Shown piece by piece: positions 16,617-45,730 of a DNA stretch of 45,730 nucleotides. The position numbers and the translations under genes were made by a program. The stretch is taken from NCBI GenBank assembly GCA_030698395.1, contig JAUYKW010000013.1, forward strand, positions 1-45,730, given 5' to 3'. The notes beneath the pieces are model-generated. The model worked only from the letters and a program-made list of their open reading frames with translations, was not told the origin of the DNA and ran no database searches. The first letter of the stretch is position 1. Each line of letters opens with the position of its first letter. The DNA is from a bacterium. GTDB taxonomy: Bacteria; Patescibacteriota; Patescibacteriia; UBA9570.

Positions 16617-17861
16617 TTACTCTAAATCGCTAGATTGTTTCTGAAAAAGAATATCTTGTTCCTTTAACAACGGCTCCACCGATAAAGCTTGCTGATTTGC
16701 TCCAGTAATAAACAAACCATTGAGCGTACTAACTCTAGACAATGCTACATATCCCATTCCCGCAACAAATGATTTAGACAGATCAATTTCCGCAGCATCC
16801 AATGTCATTCCCTGACTCTTGTGAACAGTTATCGCCCACGCTAACCTCAAAGGGAATTGCCTTATTTCTGCCTCTTTACCAGTAGCACTATCCAATATCC
16901 ATGATTCAAACTCAACGACAATTCGTTTGCCTTCTAAAGTTTCAACTATTGGGGAGCCAAACTCAAAATCTATCACTGTACCTAATGTACCATTCACATA
17001 TCCAGATTGAAAATTGTTCTTTACAAACATCACCTGAGCACTAATTTTTAATTCTAAAACTTCTGGTGCTAAACAATTCTTCACCAATGTATCAACATCT
17101 GCTTTTTTTCCATATGAAGTCATCCGGAATTTTTGTGATTCCCCAGGTAATTTAGTCAACTCATCAGCATTTAAACGATCTACATCTACATTATGAGTAT
17201 ATAACCTAGTCACAGGAGTATCCTCTGGAGCTGATTCTTCTGTTCTTTCTTGCAACTTGAACATACTATCTTCGCTTAATTCCCCTGCTCTCAATTCTTC
17301 TAAAATTATTAATAATGGATCCTCATCTTGCCGAAATACTCTATCTAAATAACAAACACTCAAATCAAGCTGTTTCCATACCTCAGCTTCGAATGCGAAA
17401 TTCTTTGAACTCGAATAACCCCGATTTATTGGTGGTAGCTGAAAATAATCTCCAGATAATACAACTTGCAACCCACCAAAAGGCTCATCATTATTCCTAA
17501 TTTTCTTCAATACCTTATCAACCATATCTAAACGATAAGAATGTAGCATGGAAACCTCATCAATAATCAATACGTCAGTCTCATGAAATCTTTTATATAA
17601 ATGCTGTTTTTGAGACAATGCATCTAGATCATACTCGGATAATGAATCTTTAATACCAATAGCAGACCAAGAATGAATAGTTTGACCTCCAATATGAGTA
17701 GCCGCAATCCCGGTTGATGCAGTAATTGCTACATTAATATTTTCTTTGCGCAACCAATCAATATATTCATTTAGCAGGTATGTTTTTCCAGAGCCTGCGG
17801 GTCCTGTAATGAACACATTGTGGCCCTCCTTTAAATAACTCAAAGCTTTTTCCTGTTTCAT
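16617..17861 (-). CDS. PIF1-like superfamily 1B DNA helicase
   Basis: The 414-residue protein carries helicase motifs in order: Walker A FITGPAGSGKTYLLNE near residue 18, Walker B VLIIDEVSML, motif III GDYFQLPPI, and the C-terminal WAITVHKSQGMTLDAAEIDL with GYVALSRV for motifs V-VI. The PIF1 signature (DEVSMLHSYRLD) is present. PIF1/RecD2-like helicases unwind 5'-3' and resolve G-quadruplexes, R-loops and stalled forks; a role on G-rich DNA here is only a suggestion. It stands alone, with about 100 bases to the divergent EF-hand gene. Confidence 0.92.
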   Translation of the reverse strand: MKQEKALSYLKEGHNVFITGPAGSGKTYLLNEYIDWLRKENINVAITASTGIAATHIGGQTIHSWSAIGIKDSLSEYDLDALSQKQHLYKRFHETDVLIIDEVSMLHSYRLDMVDKVLKKIRNNDEPFGGLQVVLSGDYFQLPPINRGYSSSKNFAFEAEVWKQLDLSVCYLDRVFRQDEDPLLIILEELRAGELSEDSMFKLQERTEESAPEDTPVTRLYTHNVDVDRLNADELTKLPGESQKFRMTSYGKKADVDTLVKNCLAPEVLELKISAQVMFVKNNFQSGYVNGTLGTVIDFEFGSPIVETLEGKRIVVEFESWILDSATGKEAEIRQFPLRLAWAITVHKSQGMTLDAAEIDLSKSFVAGMGYVALSRVSTLNGLFITGANQQALSVEPLLKEQDILFQKQSSDLE

Positions 17862-38472: not shown

Positions 38473-41217
38473 ATGGAGCGGTACATCCACCTTCTTCTGC
38501 AGATCATTTTCCTGATGTTCTGTTCGACTAGTACTTCACAGGCCGAGCAGTTTCTTAACTATCCGTTCAGCACAAACAAAGATAGCATCATCACTAATAC
38601 CTTTGAAGGGCACGACTACTGCGAAGCTACTAACTGTCGTGGTGTTGACTATGGAGTTTCGCATGGCACTGCGCTGTACGCTAGTATGTCTGGTACAGTG
38701 ACGGTTGTAGATATTTACCCTGACCAGGGTGATGCTCAAGGCTGCGACGATAGCAACATCAACTACGGCAACTACGTCAAAATTACTAATGGTTCATGGG
38801 AGGTCATCTACGGACATATGGCTAATGGACAAATGCAGGTATCAAGCGGATCTACGGTCGAAGCAGGAGATCTCCTGGGTTATTCTAGTAATTCAGGTTA
38901 CACATGTGGAAGTGGACCGAATGGATCAGCATATCATCTTCACCTAGAACTTGAGTACAACAACATTGATAAGGATCCGTACGCTGAAGACTACTTCATC
39001 ATCGACTACGATGGATCATATCACTATCCAATCGAAGAAGCGCCAGAAGTGTGTACGACTACTGTCTACGAAACGCGTGCTATTCTCACGGATGGGAACA
39101 GTGGCGACAAGTACTACTACTCCGAGTTCTCAGAAGCAGACGCCGCACTGATTCGGCATGGCTCCATCACCTACACAGGTAGTGGCACCGTGAATAACTG
39201 GTTCGTAGGAGATGTCAACGGAGATGGCTACGACGATGTCATCATGGCAGTGAACACTGCGGACAACACCGAACGCAGGTACATTGTCTACACATCGGAC
39301 TGGGACGGTACCTTCACCAACGAAGGATCTTGGCTTACGTTGGCTCGTGTAGATGTCGACAAGACTTTCATTGCCGATTTCAACAATGATGGAGCAAAAG
39401 ACATCATCATCGGCAAGGAAAAGAATGACGGCAGCTGGCGTTGGAAAGTTTGGTCCAGTACCGGAAATGCATTCACATCTGAACAGACATGGGCGGAAGA
39501 CTACGGAAAGTGGCACGACATCTTCGTGATCACAGACCTGACTAGAGACGGTACTGCAGACCTCCTGCGTGGTCGTGAAGCTGACGGCTCCACCCAGGGT
39601 GGAGATGGAAACTGTAGTAGCAAGCTCATTTGGAAGCGCCTGAAGGCCAACGGCGATACGTCAACGGTCGTGGGAAATGATGACTTGTGGGGCTACAGTG
39701 CCGCACAGTACATGGCTGGAAACATCGACTACAACGGCGACGGCAAGGAAGACATCCTGCAGATTCAAATGTGTTCAAATGACAACGACGTAGAAGCCTA
39801 CGTACGACATTTCAATTCATCTTCGGGGAAACTCGAATCCGGAGTGTCTAACACGAACACCACTGCTAAATTGGCCAATGATGTTGGTGGAACAGATGGG
39901 CTCTATGCCCTGGCAGACCTGAACAACGATAACTACCCTGATCTCATTCGCTGGAGCAGCACTAACCTCAAGTGGATGCAGAATATTAGTGGAACTAGTT
40001 TTCAGGAAGGAGCAAACGCAGATACCTTGATCGCAGACGCTGGCTACACAAGTGGCACTCAGCGGCTGCTGCTTGGCTACTTCGGAGAATACGAAGTGGA
40101 ATCATGCAGGTCGCCAAATGGTATCGACAGTCCAGAAAACATCGACCTCCACGATCTTGTCCACGCTCACTTGATGGACACGATTTCCAGCCCGTTCATC
40201 ACCTACAGCGAGATTAATCAACGGTTCTGGGCTTACTACCAAGACGTCGATGGAGACATCTACGAGTTCGGTAGCCCAAACGGTGTTAATTGGTCAGGCA
40301 CGAACTTGTCAGACCATATTGGGTTCTACGAAACAGCATCCAGTGGAACGACACCTGTTCTTGCCATCAACGAAACCACAGAACACAGCTACCTCGTGTA
40401 TATGGGCAGTGATGACCGCATCAAAGTTATGGATTCCGACTCCACTAGCTGGACGGCATTCGATCTCTTTGATCTGGTTCGCACTGGTTGGGCAGACGCA
40501 TCCACATCACCGTGGGCATACGTCAGTCCAATTACCAATAACACTCACATCGTCTACACCGGAAGTGATCAACGACTCTACGAAATCACACACAACGGCT
40601 CAAGCTGGACCTCGGAGTACATCAGCGACATCGTTCGCCATGATTACATCCAAGCAGGCACCAGCCCACATGCTGTCACTGACCCCATTTCTGGTGACCG
40701 GTACATTGCCTTCACAGGCTATTCTGGAAACACCAACCTGCTCAAGCATAACTATGTTACCGAAACCTGGTCCCGCTGGAGCCTCACCGACGAAGGAGCA
40801 CCCACTACAGACCTGACTACCTCACCATATCTGTACGTCGATGATGTCGACGGCAGCTTGTACATCCTGCTCACCGATAACAGTGGTCGTCTCAACCAAG
40901 TGCACTTCGATGGCTTCACCTGGACTACTGTCGATCTAATGGATTACATCGCGGTTGATACGGTAGCACAATACACACGTTCCACTAGCTTTGTGGATCC
41001 GAACACTGGAACACACTACATCTCCTACACCGGGGACAACAGTGAGCTCTACCAGTTCATGATTCAATCCAACGGAACCATCTCTGGAGGACAAATCAAC
41101 ACAGACACCAGCATCGCAACAGAAACTAGCGTGTGGAGCCTGGCAGACACCTATACCAACCTGCACTACACCGTGTACACCGGGTCGGATGGGCGATTCC
41201 AGCTCTATGTGTTCTAG
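38473..41217 (+). CDS. Secreted M23-like/FG-GAP/propeller protein of foreign composition
   Basis: The 914-residue protein has a signal peptide (MERYIHLLLQIIFLMFCSTS). An M23 domain follows (about 40-180), with GHM at H115 and HLHLE at H155-H157, but the first motif, usually HxGxD, is C55-R-G-V-D59, so Cys replaces the zinc-binding His. From about 230 to 510 run five FG-GAP repeats (GDVNGDGYDDVIM, DFNNDGAKDIII, DYNGDGKEDILQ, DLNNDNYPDLIR). From about 560 to 910 run six propeller-like repeats (YTGSDQRLYEITHNGSSWTS). Codons prefer C in the third position, at about half G+C. A GAGG box lies before the ATG, which is unusual here. It is probably surface-exposed and acquired. Confidence 0.85.
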   Translation: MERYIHLLLQIIFLMFCSTSTSQAEQFLNYPFSTNKDSIITNTFEGHDYCEATNCRGVDYGVSHGTALYASMSGTVTVVDIYPDQGDAQGCDDSNINYGNYVKITNGSWEVIYGHMANGQMQVSSGSTVEAGDLLGYSSNSGYTCGSGPNGSAYHLHLELEYNNIDKDPYAEDYFIIDYDGSYHYPIEEAPEVCTTTVYETRAILTDGNSGDKYYYSEFSEADAALIRHGSITYTGSGTVNNWFVGDVNGDGYDDVIMAVNTADNTERRYIVYTSDWDGTFTNEGSWLTLARVDVDKTFIADFNNDGAKDIIIGKEKNDGSWRWKVWSSTGNAFTSEQTWAEDYGKWHDIFVITDLTRDGTADLLRGREADGSTQGGDGNCSSKLIWKRLKANGDTSTVVGNDDLWGYSAAQYMAGNIDYNGDGKEDILQIQMCSNDNDVEAYVRHFNSSSGKLESGVSNTNTTAKLANDVGGTDGLYALADLNNDNYPDLIRWSSTNLKWMQNISGTSFQEGANADTLIADAGYTSGTQRLLLGYFGEYEVESCRSPNGIDSPENIDLHDLVHAHLMDTISSPFITYSEINQRFWAYYQDVDGDIYEFGSPNGVNWSGTNLSDHIGFYETASSGTTPVLAINETTEHSYLVYMGSDDRIKVMDSDSTSWTAFDLFDLVRTGWADASTSPWAYVSPITNNTHIVYTGSDQRLYEITHNGSSWTSEYISDIVRHDYIQAGTSPHAVTDPISGDRYIAFTGYSGNTNLLKHNYVTETWSRWSLTDEGAPTTDLTTSPYLYVDDVDGSLYILLTDNSGRLNQVHFDGFTWTTVDLMDYIAVDTVAQYTRSTSFVDPNTGTHYISYTGDNSELYQFMIQSNGTISGGQINTDTSIATETSVWSLADTYTNLHYTVYTGSDGRFQLYVF

Positions 41218-41979: not shown

Positions 41980-42942
41980 TTATTTTTGTAGCAACAAGAT
42001 AACTAACCCAACCATCTTATCTTTATCTTTCCTGTTCCCTTCGGCTATAAGTAATGTTAGTGCTGTTAAGGCTTTAGGTGTAAAGCTAGAACGTAATAAT
42101 CTACCCTTTTGCAAAAACCATATGAACGCAAATGCACCGTTACGTTTATTCCCATCAACAAAAGGATGATTTTTTACCATAAAATATAAAAGATGTGCGG
42201 CTTTTTCTTCGATACTTGGATAGAGGTCTTTTCCTCCAAAACTTTGTAATACGTTACCGACTATCCCTTTAACTGATCCTCGATTCTTTTCTTGACCAAA
42301 AATTGCAGTTGCTTGTTTCTTTTTAACTAATTCCATTTTGAACGTACTCAGTACTTCTTGTAATTCTTCAGCCTCAATGACAAATTCTTGTTGAGTAACA
42401 TTTTTAGTGTGAAAATTTTGAGAATCATAAGCATCTAATGAAAACCATGTGCTTGCAAACATATTTACGAGTTCTAACACATCTTGCTGACTCACTTCAC
42501 TATTTTCTGGTAATAGAGCCTTAATATCCGTCACCGCTTGAATAAACTGTTCGTAGTTCCGAGCTATCTGTTTCTTATTGAATGTATAACCTTGAACTAA
42601 ATGTTGTTTTAATGTTTTTGTAGCCCAAATACGAAATTGTGTGGCTTGCTTGGAATCTACTCGATAACCGATAGATAAAATCATATCTAGATTATAGTAG
42701 TCTACTCGGTAGACTTTTCCATCAGTGGCAGTTGTTGCAATTTTTGCAACAACTGAATTCTGCTCTAATTCTTCAGATTTAAAAATATTTTTAATATGTC
42801 GTGAAATAACTGATTTATCACGTCCAAATAATTCACTAATTTGCTTTAGGTTACCCCAAATTGTGTCCCTATCAAAATCACCACGGAATTCAATTTTTCC
42901 ACTTTTTGCTTGATAAATGACCAATTGTTTTTGACTGTTCAT
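41980..42942 (-). CDS. RhuM-Doc (Fic family) fusion protein
   Basis: Starting at ATG 42942, with AGAGG eight bases upstream, the product is 320 residues. The N-terminal 110 residues are RhuM-like (GNLKQISELFGRDKSVISRH, then YRVDYYNLDMILSIGYRVDS), the helix-turn-helix-like region first described for a Salmonella virulence protein. The C-terminal part is a Fic/Doc domain with motif HPFVDGNKRNGAFAF near residue 255. The motif is closer to Doc (GNKR) than to AMP-transferase Fic (GNGR), so kinase or other transfer to a protein target is possible. No antitoxin-like small gene is recognised beside it. The upstream GTG/ATG starts at 42966 add eight residues. Confidence 0.85.
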   Translation of the reverse strand: MNSQKQLVIYQAKSGKIEFRGDFDRDTIWGNLKQISELFGRDKSVISRHIKNIFKSEELEQNSVVAKIATTATDGKVYRVDYYNLDMILSIGYRVDSKQATQFRIWATKTLKQHLVQGYTFNKKQIARNYEQFIQAVTDIKALLPENSEVSQQDVLELVNMFASTWFSLDAYDSQNFHTKNVTQQEFVIEAEELQEVLSTFKMELVKKKQATAIFGQEKNRGSVKGIVGNVLQSFGGKDLYPSIEEKAAHLLYFMVKNHPFVDGNKRNGAFAFIWFLQKGRLLRSSFTPKALTALTLLIAEGNRKDKDKMVGLVILLLQK

Positions 42943-43051
42943 TTTTGCCTCTTTATTGGTACGCATGAACTAATAGTACTGCATAGGGATGCATATTACA
43001 ATCTGTTCTGAAGTGCAGGGGTAGCACCCACTCGAAGCATAAACAGGCTCT

Positions 43052-43447: not shown

Positions 43448-43546
43448 AAGAAATACGTATGTTAAAAGTCTTTACGATTAGTATTAGTGTAGCATATTAA
43501 ATCACCATAAACTAATGGCTACAACATTTTCATATGCAGTCCTGTT

Positions 43547-43702
43547 TGCCAAAACTTTGTACTAGTTGGCAGTCCTTGTCGGACGAAATTCGAGGATTTT
43601 TCGAGAAAAATCCATTTAATAATTAGTTCATTTGGAGCGCCCCGTTGGGGCGCGAGCGGGCAAAAAGGAAGGGGGTTGGGGGGAAGGAATTTTTGCCCGC
43701 TC
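43547..43702. other. Array of hairpins, one with a G-rich loop
   Basis: Within about 155 bases without genes: TGCCAA 43547-43552 / TTGGCA 43566-43571; GTCC 43572-43575 / GGAC 43581-43584; GGATTTTT 43594-43601 / AAAAATCC 43606-43613; GCGCCCC 43637-43643 / GGGGCGC 43647-43653; and a perfect 13-base stem, GAGCGGGCAAAAA 43654-43666 with TTTTTGCCCGCTC 43690-43702. The last loop is 23 bases with four G-runs (GG, GGGGG, GGGGGG, GG), a two-tier quadruplex candidate on the plus strand. The stretch 43448-43546 and 43703-43803 holds only a pyrimidine tract and a GGCTGCAGCC palindrome. Function is unknown. Confidence 0.6.
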
Positions 43703-43803
43703 TCTTCTTCTCTCTTTTTTTGGTTCGGATGGGCTCGGGCTGCAGCCTTTTCCCTGTATTGTATTATATAACAATGCTGTGAAATAGCTTTTTTGGTTAC
43801 GAA

Positions 43804-44691
43804 TTAGAACGCCGCAATACCATTAAGCCTAACTGACGAAACAAGTCGTTGATAGACCTCATCAAGATCTGACGAAGTTTCGCTATCCGGTTTATAGGCA
43901 GCGCCTACTTTTTTTGTGACTGTGATGTTTGCCAAAGGATGTGGTTGTAGAAAAAAAGCAGCGGTGCGTGCATAACCATTTTCAGAATAGACATTAATGT
44001 TGTCGTGCTTGGTAGCTGTATATTGATTTTCGACATTACCTCCCCATGCCAGTTCATTATCTCCTTGTTCTGCGCTGTAGGAAACTAAGTAGCTACTATC
44101 ATTGTAGATAAATTTCGACAGGCCTGGGACGCCATTCATATTTTCGGTCACCGTTACATCGCTTGGTACGTCGAATATCACTCCCGTATCGCCTGCTGTA
44201 AATTGTTTGTAGGTGATGGCACTTGTTACATCGACTGCATTTAGCTTCAATGTTGGTTCAACCACTTTTTTTACTTCGTCGCACCCAACCGACAGCCCTG
44301 ATCCATCATCAAATCCTGATCCACATGAACCTGTAAAGAGGAGCCAATCGTTGTTGAGCATTTTAGGATACGCCTCTCCACCAGCAGCGCATACGTCAAA
44401 ATCCTTTGAGAACTGGTCGAACATACTAATGTACTCGGGTTTGTTAGGAATCACAGTCACTACAAACGTATCGGATGACTGGCTGGCACCTTCGTATTTG
44501 AAACTGTAGATTGTTTTGGTTGTACCACTAAATTTTGATATTAATTCATCCAGATAGCCATCTTCTTGTTCAGTACCACATTCATCTGCATCTGCTTGTA
44601 ACTGTTCGGCTGTATAGTCGAATGGCGCTGTCGTTTTTGAAACCGCAACATCGACGCCAGTGGTTGAATAAGATAGTGGTTCAGTTGATTT
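43804..44691 (-). CDS. C-terminal extension of the PsbP-like protein, separated by TAG
   Basis: The frame is open directly after the TAG of 44692-44694 and runs 295 codons with no start until GTG 44460, though the 77 codons before that are already protein-like (YSTTGVDVAVSKTTAPFDYT, then ECGTEQEDGYLDELISKF). It contains paired cysteines (DVCAAGG, GSCGSG, VGCDEV) and a beta-rich C-terminus (VTVTENMNGVPGLSKFIYND). Either TAG is a nonsense mutation, it is read through, or a start is hidden. The family is not recognised. It is the last gene before the hairpin array. Confidence 0.6.
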   Translation of the reverse strand, partial: KSTEPLSYSTTGVDVAVSKTTAPFDYTAEQLQADADECGTEQEDGYLDELISKFSGTTKTIYSFKYEGASQSSDTFVVTVIPNKPEYISMFDQFSKDFDVCAAGGEAYPKMLNNDWLLFTGSCGSGFDDGSGLSVGCDEVKKVVEPTLKLNAVDVTSAITYKQFTAGDTGVIFDVPSDVTVTENMNGVPGLSKFIYNDSSYLVSYSAEQGDNELAWGGNVENQYTATKHDNINVYSENGYARTAAFFLQPHPLANITVTKKVGAAYKPDSETSSDLDEVYQRLVSSVRLNGIAAF

Positions 44692-45730
44692 CTAGCTGAC
44701 CTCAAAGGTTTCAATGATTCCTTTTACCTCATTTTGGATCTCCAAATCAGACTCTTCTGATCCGGGCATCCCAACACAGCAACCGGCTCCTGTATAATAA
44801 TAACTGTAGATTGCATTTTCGGTTATGTATTTATGCGAATAGTCTACCACGGCAGGGGCATTCTTATCTTCAATTTTTACGACGTTGATTTTAATATAGC
44901 GCCCGTTGCTCGTTGAATCTAGGATAATTGAAGCAACAAATTTTGAACCATCTGCTGTAGTATCGTCTGAACCTTTTCTTACACTTTCTGTCATAATCCC
45001 CCAGCTTGCAGGAAATACCATGGAAAATCCATAGGTTGAGTTTTCATAAGTATTTTCTGATTGAACTGGAGTCGTGTTAGTGACAGTTGACGCTGTATCC
45101 ACCTCCAAGCGAAAGAGCCCGGCGTCTACTGCTGCAAGCACGTCTGTCGGATCCAATTCATTTTCGTCTTCTCCACCATAATGCTGAATTTCTCCATTCA
45201 AGAAGGTTGTCTTCCCACTGGTCAAATCCTGGTCTGGGATATCGGCCGCTATGTCTTTTCGGTATATTTCTGGTCTCCAGACAACATATACAACACGATA
45301 TGAACCCGCCGCTGGGGCTTCTTCCGAGTAGTCCAACCCACCATAGTGCTTGAGTGTAGCTGGTTCCCAATCATACGATGTTTGTCCGGCTTCAATCTTG
45401 CCAATGAGTCCCGCGAAGGTTCCGTCCTCCCGTACCAAGAACAGTTCATGACTCACTCCTGTTTGCGCATTTGCAAAAATGCCCGCAGTACGCAATCCAA
45501 TCTGTATCGTGTCTTGCAGCGAAAATACATTTCCCTCAACTTGTTCCATCAACACTTCTAACATACCAGCTGAGCCAATGCGTTTAAAGCTATTGTAGAA
45601 TTCATCGAACGAATCATTTTCAATTGCGCCATTCGTGATGAAGAAAACACGTTCCTCCTGTTCAATGAGGACTGCCTCGTACACCCAACTTGGATTCGAT
45701 GGCGTGGTGATGACAGCTTTAATCGCAGGA
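44692..45730 (-). CDS. PsbP-like-domain surface protein, partial (N-terminus beyond window)
   Basis: The frame is open to the right edge: before GTG 45684 it already reads PAIKAVITTPSNPSWVYEAV, so the N-terminus is missing. About 200 residues with acidic patches and a segment YYVVWRPE-like (RVVYVVWRPEIYRKDIA) precede a PsbP-like domain (YENSTYGFSMVFPASWGIM, ending GIIETFEVS). The stop is TAG at 44692-44694, and the frame continues beyond it. G+C is higher than in the central part of the window. Together the two parts would be a protein of at least 640 residues. Confidence 0.72.
   Translation of the reverse strand, partial: PAIKAVITTPSNPSWVYEAVLIEQEERVFFITNGAIENDSFDEFYNSFKRIGSAGMLEVLMEQVEGNVFSLQDTIQIGLRTAGIFANAQTGVSHELFLVREDGTFAGLIGKIEAGQTSYDWEPATLKHYGGLDYSEEAPAAGSYRVVYVVWRPEIYRKDIAADIPDQDLTSGKTTFLNGEIQHYGGEDENELDPTDVLAAVDAGLFRLEVDTASTVTNTTPVQSENTYENSTYGFSMVFPASWGIMTESVRKGSDDTTADGSKFVASIILDSTSNGRYIKINVVKIEDKNAPAVVDYSHKYITENAIYSYYYTGAGCCVGMPGSEESDLEIQNEVKGIIETFEVS

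Follow-up and report, generated by a model that had tools for sequence, protein, structure and literature searches.

Tycheposons are islands that target tRNA genes by means of tyrosine recombinases and whose variable cargo is often defensive. The elements mobilized by large serine recombinases, of the phage and IME type (e.g., Tn4451, the listeria integrase and phiC31), encode an integrase with Resolvase, Recombinase and zinc ribbon domains. In serine integrases, the zinc-ribbon motif is shifted by 5 bp between attP and attB (PMC3783163). Serine-type IMEs have been reported within dispensable genes, and tyrosine IMEs at the 3' ends of tRNA genes (PMC5704250); the main text of a large survey devoted to serine recombinases makes no mention of tRNA (PMC10083194). 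Two other systems are relevant here: integrons, whose tyrosine integrase, IntI, goes together with attI and attC sites, and REP/RAYT and IS200/IS605 elements, in which hairpins go with a Y1/HUH transposase.

The window, i.e., the whole stretch of 45,730 nucleotides of a patescibacterial contig that was analysed, carries a hairpin array at positions 43547-43702. Judging from sequence comparisons, this array probably (with a probability of about 0.8) forms one end of a patescibacterial gene cassette of the integrative kind, which would be moved by large serine recombinases at the 3' ends of tRNA genes. No description of such cassettes was found in the literature, the coverage of which was partial, so that this is weak evidence of novelty.

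The first-pass annotation had described five perfect stems, the last one of 13 bp with a loop resembling a G-quadruplex, and the stems were verified on the sequence. The outermost one, TGCCAA/TTGGCA, spans 43547-43571 (6 bp); it is followed by GGATTTTT-CGAG-AAAAATCC (43594-43613, 8-bp stem) and GCGCCCC-GTT-GGGGCGC (43637-43653, 7-bp stem), neither assigned to a strand and both supported by the stem check and by folding, while a GTCC/GGAC stem of 4 bp is seen in the fold of the array. These short outer stems would not be remarkable by themselves. The G-loop hairpin, the hallmark of the cassette ends, lies at 43654-43702 on the plus strand; its 13-bp stem, GAGCGGGCAAAAA/TTTTTGCCCGCTC, closes a loop of 23 nt, GGAAGGGGGTTGGGGGGAAGGAA, which is the strongest G4 motif in the window. 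When the 156 bp were shuffled by dinucleotides 2000 times, a perfect 13-bp stem arose once. The single-stranded DNA fold of 43560-43705 has a free energy of -31.5 kcal/mol, compared to -17.6 ± 2.8 kcal/mol in shuffles (z of -5.0), and positions 43657-43695 are the only ones in the entire window where the absolute G4Hunter score is at least 1.8.

The hairpin was found by DNA search in 18 of 57 genomes, across family borders and with identities of up to 98%. Identical copies of its 37-nt core (43660-43696) exist in many genomes. With at most three mismatches, the core was matched in 31 of the 286 genomes searched for the class and in 18 of the 380 searched for the phylum, compared to no match for the reversed sequence. 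The named matches of the core are mostly Patescibacteria (Uhrbacteria, Falkowbacteria, Magasanikbacteria, Nomurabacteria, Berkelbacteria, Peribacteria and others); the few core-bearing bins named otherwise may be mis-binned contigs or transfers. Exact cores occur in bins named Nitrospinae, Omnitrophota, Leptospiraceae, Gammaproteobacteria, Ignavibacteria, Dehalococcoidia and Spirochaetota (L099, L106, L117, L139, L147, L160 and L169), either by contamination or by real transfer. A scan of IMG/VR gave no exact match to the hairpin. The hairpin is conserved across many families, so that the lack of conservation named in the first-pass annotation as a refuting result is not borne out, and the array is not an assembly artefact, since the element recurs in other genomes. 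Many contigs do stop within the repeats that contain the hairpin, as expected of short-read assemblies, but copies also sit in the interior of long contigs (e.g., G283:C9), which argues against the repeats being artefactual. A DNA uptake sequence was considered and dropped because the hairpin is present in only 1-4 copies per genome.

The structure itself is conserved. Pair counts on copies picked for perfect stems were discarded as circular, and 76 distinct copies were selected by the loop alone instead. In this set, the outer stem pairs, 10-13, pair in 72-87% of the copies, compared to 44-65% when partners are shuffled (none of 500 shuffles reaches the observed values), with compensatory changes between C-G and A-T and between G-C and A-T. 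The loop is nearly invariant and varies chiefly at two positions (TTG versus TCT). A second sequence family follows the same plan with another stem and loop, GGCGGAA-GGGGGGTTTGGGGGGAA-TTCCGCC.

The hairpin often occurs as inverted pairs within the terminal inverted repeats of cassettes of 2-8 kb. The repeats measure about 75-356 bp, mostly at least 95 bp, the two ends being usually more than 95% identical, and they enclose 1.3-7.8 kb. The cargo was examined for the 85 ORFs of 31 cassettes whose hairpin repeats are paired. By our own tally, about half of these cassettes contain genes for restriction-modification or for other kinds of defence, namely specificity and restriction subunits, DNA methyltransferases, a helicase-nuclease, and OLD-like and McrB-like ATPases. 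The cassette ORFs match 536 families of PADLOC models, compared to 79 for 85 flanking ORFs, a rough measure since the families overlap strongly. In other cassettes the cargo consists of transporters, a DprA-like protein, a histidyl-tRNA synthetase-like protein or unknowns. Histidyl-tRNA synthetase-like proteins are found in similar three-gene cassette sets of two different genomes (L102 and L149), and one cassette protein (L177, 1459-3018) is a LexA-like repressor/S24 peptidase fused to a DNA methyltransferase. At the 5' ends of cassettes in L074, L025, L073 and L087, another conserved hairpin, whose loop is likewise G-rich (GTTGCCCGCGCACGGGAGTGGTGGGGCAAGGGCAAC or similar), lies near GACAAGGAACTCCC ahead of the first cargo gene; it is perhaps a common promoter or leader.

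Outward of the hairpin, each cassette finishes in a 25-nt arm that runs from TTCG to CCA and resembles the T-arm and 3' end of a tRNA (e.g., GTTCGAACTTCGTTCAAAAAACACCG or GTTCGGATTTCGTTCAGCGTTCGGAG, followed by CCA). Of 113 ends, 52 have CCA at offset 25 from TTCG and 12 have it at offset 24, any other offset being used at most 6 times, and the conservation of the ends stops at CCA. In tRNA genes, the T-loop motif TTCGA is located 20 nt before the same point, counting the discriminator base. The spacing of the motif thus differs by 5 bp (25 versus 20 nt) between arm and tRNA, which is the shift published for the attP and attB sites of large serine recombinases, and both share a short core (PMC3783163).

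The cassette end in the window has this organization. On the minus strand, a P-like arm of 25 nt with the core CTG, CTCGAATTTCGTCCGACAAGGACTG, followed by CCA, occupies 43570-43594; it has the spacing of the other cassette ends and is also present in a genome of the same family (G003) and in another genome (G008). A P'-like arm at 43545-43569, on the same strand and on the outer flank, contains AGTACA at the same core offset as the attP-like site of the recombinase unit of G003. Together the arms make up an attP-like site (43545-43594), of which 43558-43593 aligns with 83% identity to positions 10477-10442 of a G003 locus (L035); 96% identity is reached over 52 bp at the G003 cassette end. From the 25-nt spacing, the match to G003 and the presence of AGTACA in the left flank, it follows that the cassette interior lies to the right of the core. 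The left terminal repeat (43563-43786, no strand assigned) aligns over 143 positions with the right end of a G008 cassette (contig C57), at 82.5% identity, and has an inner match at 43755-43786. A G008 cassette with the same type of end carries a type I restriction-modification protein. Two cargo ORFs without Pfam family follow on the minus strand, one of 218 aa (43804-44460), whose 3' end abuts the terminal repeat, and one of 345 aa (44692-45729), which is open at the contig end. On the left side of the array, the neighbouring unit has a minus-strand gene at 41980-42966 for a RhuM-Fic protein (PF13310 and PF02661), a homologue of which is also found beside the G003 cassette end, with about 70% nucleotide identity to parts of L035 5993-6792. 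Further left, an M23 peptidase gene with FG-GAP repeats (38473-41217) has a GC content of about 50% in a contig of 33-35% GC and is likely foreign.

Only one cassette end is present in the window, and no second end, tRNA or close recombinase was found in it. Pattern searches of the same genome gave no convincing tRNA ending in CTG, and the only related recombinase in this genome is a distant one (34%) at a tRNA-Pro.

The recombinases are described from other genomes, including G003, where a related arm at the opposite end of the cassette abuts a recombinase unit. Such units adjoin the cassettes, measure 1.5 kb, are bounded by inverted repeats of about 85-190 bp and encode large serine recombinases (PF00239, PF07508 and PF13408, i.e., Resolvase, Recombinase and zinc ribbon); none lies beside the site in the window. 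In units such as that of L087 (5948-6081 and 7574-7707), the inverted repeat extends into the recombinase gene and covers some of its 3' region, so that the upstream flank of the gene holds an inverted copy of its tail. The units lie exactly at the 3' ends of tRNAs, with the cassette on their other side, and have full attP-like sites in common with the cassettes. In 13 of 25 distinct recombinases near hairpins, the 3' end of an antiparallel tRNA meets that of the recombinase gene, and most of the others run off the contig. A second sample of 18, chosen by similarity of the recombinase and not by the hairpin (one member, L232, is the query itself), has such a tRNA 3' end at 13 loci, inverted repeats around 15 and an arm 27-28 bp before the repeat in 9. 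Among the tRNAs concerned are those for Ser, Asn, Ala, Leu, Gln, Pro and Val. At the junctions of the unit, an attP arm-core-P' sequence is found at one end and a tRNA-core-P' sequence at the other.

The recombinase clade is present in 19 of the 31 genomes with the hairpin, compared to 42 of 255 others (odds ratio of 8.0, p = 2.8e-7, phylogeny being ignored). A close recombinase is absent from the other 12 of the 31; it could act in trans, or have been lost or left unassembled. No empty site was recovered: for the element of one genome (G109), the homologous gene is present but the tRNA synteny is lost.

These observations suggest a mechanism in which the arm would serve as attP and the 3' end of the tRNA as attB; the recombinase would join the two at a core of 3 nt immediately ahead of CCA, thereby restoring the tRNA. 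Since the arm is present at both ends, in opposite orientations, cassettes could undergo inversion, stacking or exchange next to the recombinase unit. The cassettes would share with the known serine recombinase elements the integrase architecture and the shift between attP and attB, but here many tRNA genes appear to be targeted at their 3' ends, recombinase gene and cargo form separate units, each with inverted repeats, and the ends are structured by the G-loop. Tyrosine recombinase islands (IMEs) similarly insert at tRNA 3' ends, restore the tRNA and carry variable, often defensive cargo; they differ in the recombinase family, and the cassettes have inverted repeats and a separate recombinase unit. 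As in integrons, cassettes lie beside a recombinase gene, have structured recombination ends and can be neighbours in an array, but the integron enzyme is a tyrosine recombinase, whereas the one associated here is of the serine type, the cassettes have two inverted ends and a tRNA serves as anchor. The most integron-like arrangement seen is that of G003:C38 (L035, 5435-12140), where two cassettes and a recombinase unit form an array with a further flanking arm.

For the hairpin itself, a DNA structure involved in cassette movement, an insulator at both edges and a protein site are candidate roles. A reading with appreciable weight, although short of an even chance, keeps the cassettes but gives the hairpins no part in movement: they would mainly be bidirectional transcription stops at the cassette edges, which would stop transcription of the tRNA and neighbours from entering the cassette and transcription of the cargo from leaving it. 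Consistent with this, the symmetric hairpin would act in both directions, the last cargo gene ends 5-70 bp short of the repeat in many cassettes, and several copies of the hairpin lie 29-33 nt past the tRNA, at a place from which its native terminator has been displaced. On the other hand, an intrinsic terminator has a U-tract immediately after a GC-rich stem, and none directly follows this stem: position 43702 is followed by TCTTCTTCTCTC, a T-run lies about 12 nt downstream, and no terminator-like site was called there. The near invariance of the loop, while the recombinases near hairpins diverge to about 45% identity, exceeds the needs of a terminator and argues against a plain one. The earlier statement that this is not a normal terminator is thus plausible, all the more as the orientation of the hairpin varies, but the hairpin may still act as an insulator.

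In the preferred reading, the hairpin is most likely a structured DNA feature of the mobile end, a cruciform or a G-quadruplex perhaps bound by a protein, although this step is a guess. The boldest version of the preferred reading is a natural cassette-exchange system, the serine recombinase counterpart of the integron, in which cassettes often devoted to defence, with paired inverted attP sites and a G-quadruplex hairpin at either end, would be inserted, flipped and swapped at tRNA genes throughout Patescibacteria, the hairpin being required for mobility; this we regard as less likely than not.

It is unlikely that the element acts as a transcribed structured RNA, or RNA G-quadruplex, that regulates the cargo. 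The covariation of the stem and the invariance of the loop would suit such a role, but no Rfam family matches the hairpin, both ends of each cassette bear it, and its G-rich strand points inward at 72 ends and outward at 41, a variable orientation relative to the arm that disfavours a strand-specific RNA.

A separate transposon, of DDE or HUH type, that merely inserts near tRNA-recombinase islands could also account for the hairpin-bearing repeats, which would then be its ends; this is slightly less likely still. Long inverted repeats are transposon-like, two of the cassette proteins have matches to integrase core domains (rve_3), and hairpin ends in inverted pairs are reminiscent of single-strand transposons such as REP/RAYT and IS200/IS605. 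However, no transposase is common to the 31 cassettes, the copy number is low, and Y1_Tnp is absent from the 25 commonest Pfam families of the cargo and from the largest proteins of 30 cassettes; moreover, the boundaries fall at tRNA-like arms and recombinase units, with a fixed spacing from arm to core. A replication pause or a quadruplex site linked to PIF1, as allowed for in the first-pass annotation, is hardly credible: the G4Hunter score is high and the PIF1-like gene is real (16617-17861), but it lies 26 kb away with no association of any kind to the array, and the element is of low copy number, mobile and tied to cassette ends. The recombination site proposed in the same annotation fits best, as the array appears to end an integrative cassette beside an attP-like site.

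If this reading is correct, the hairpin is a sequence tag for locating such islands, the serine recombinases that target tRNA genes form a large family whose attachment sites can be read, and the nearly invariant G-loop poses a clear and testable structural question. It would also account for how the genome-reduced Patescibacteria gain restriction-modification and other defence genes.
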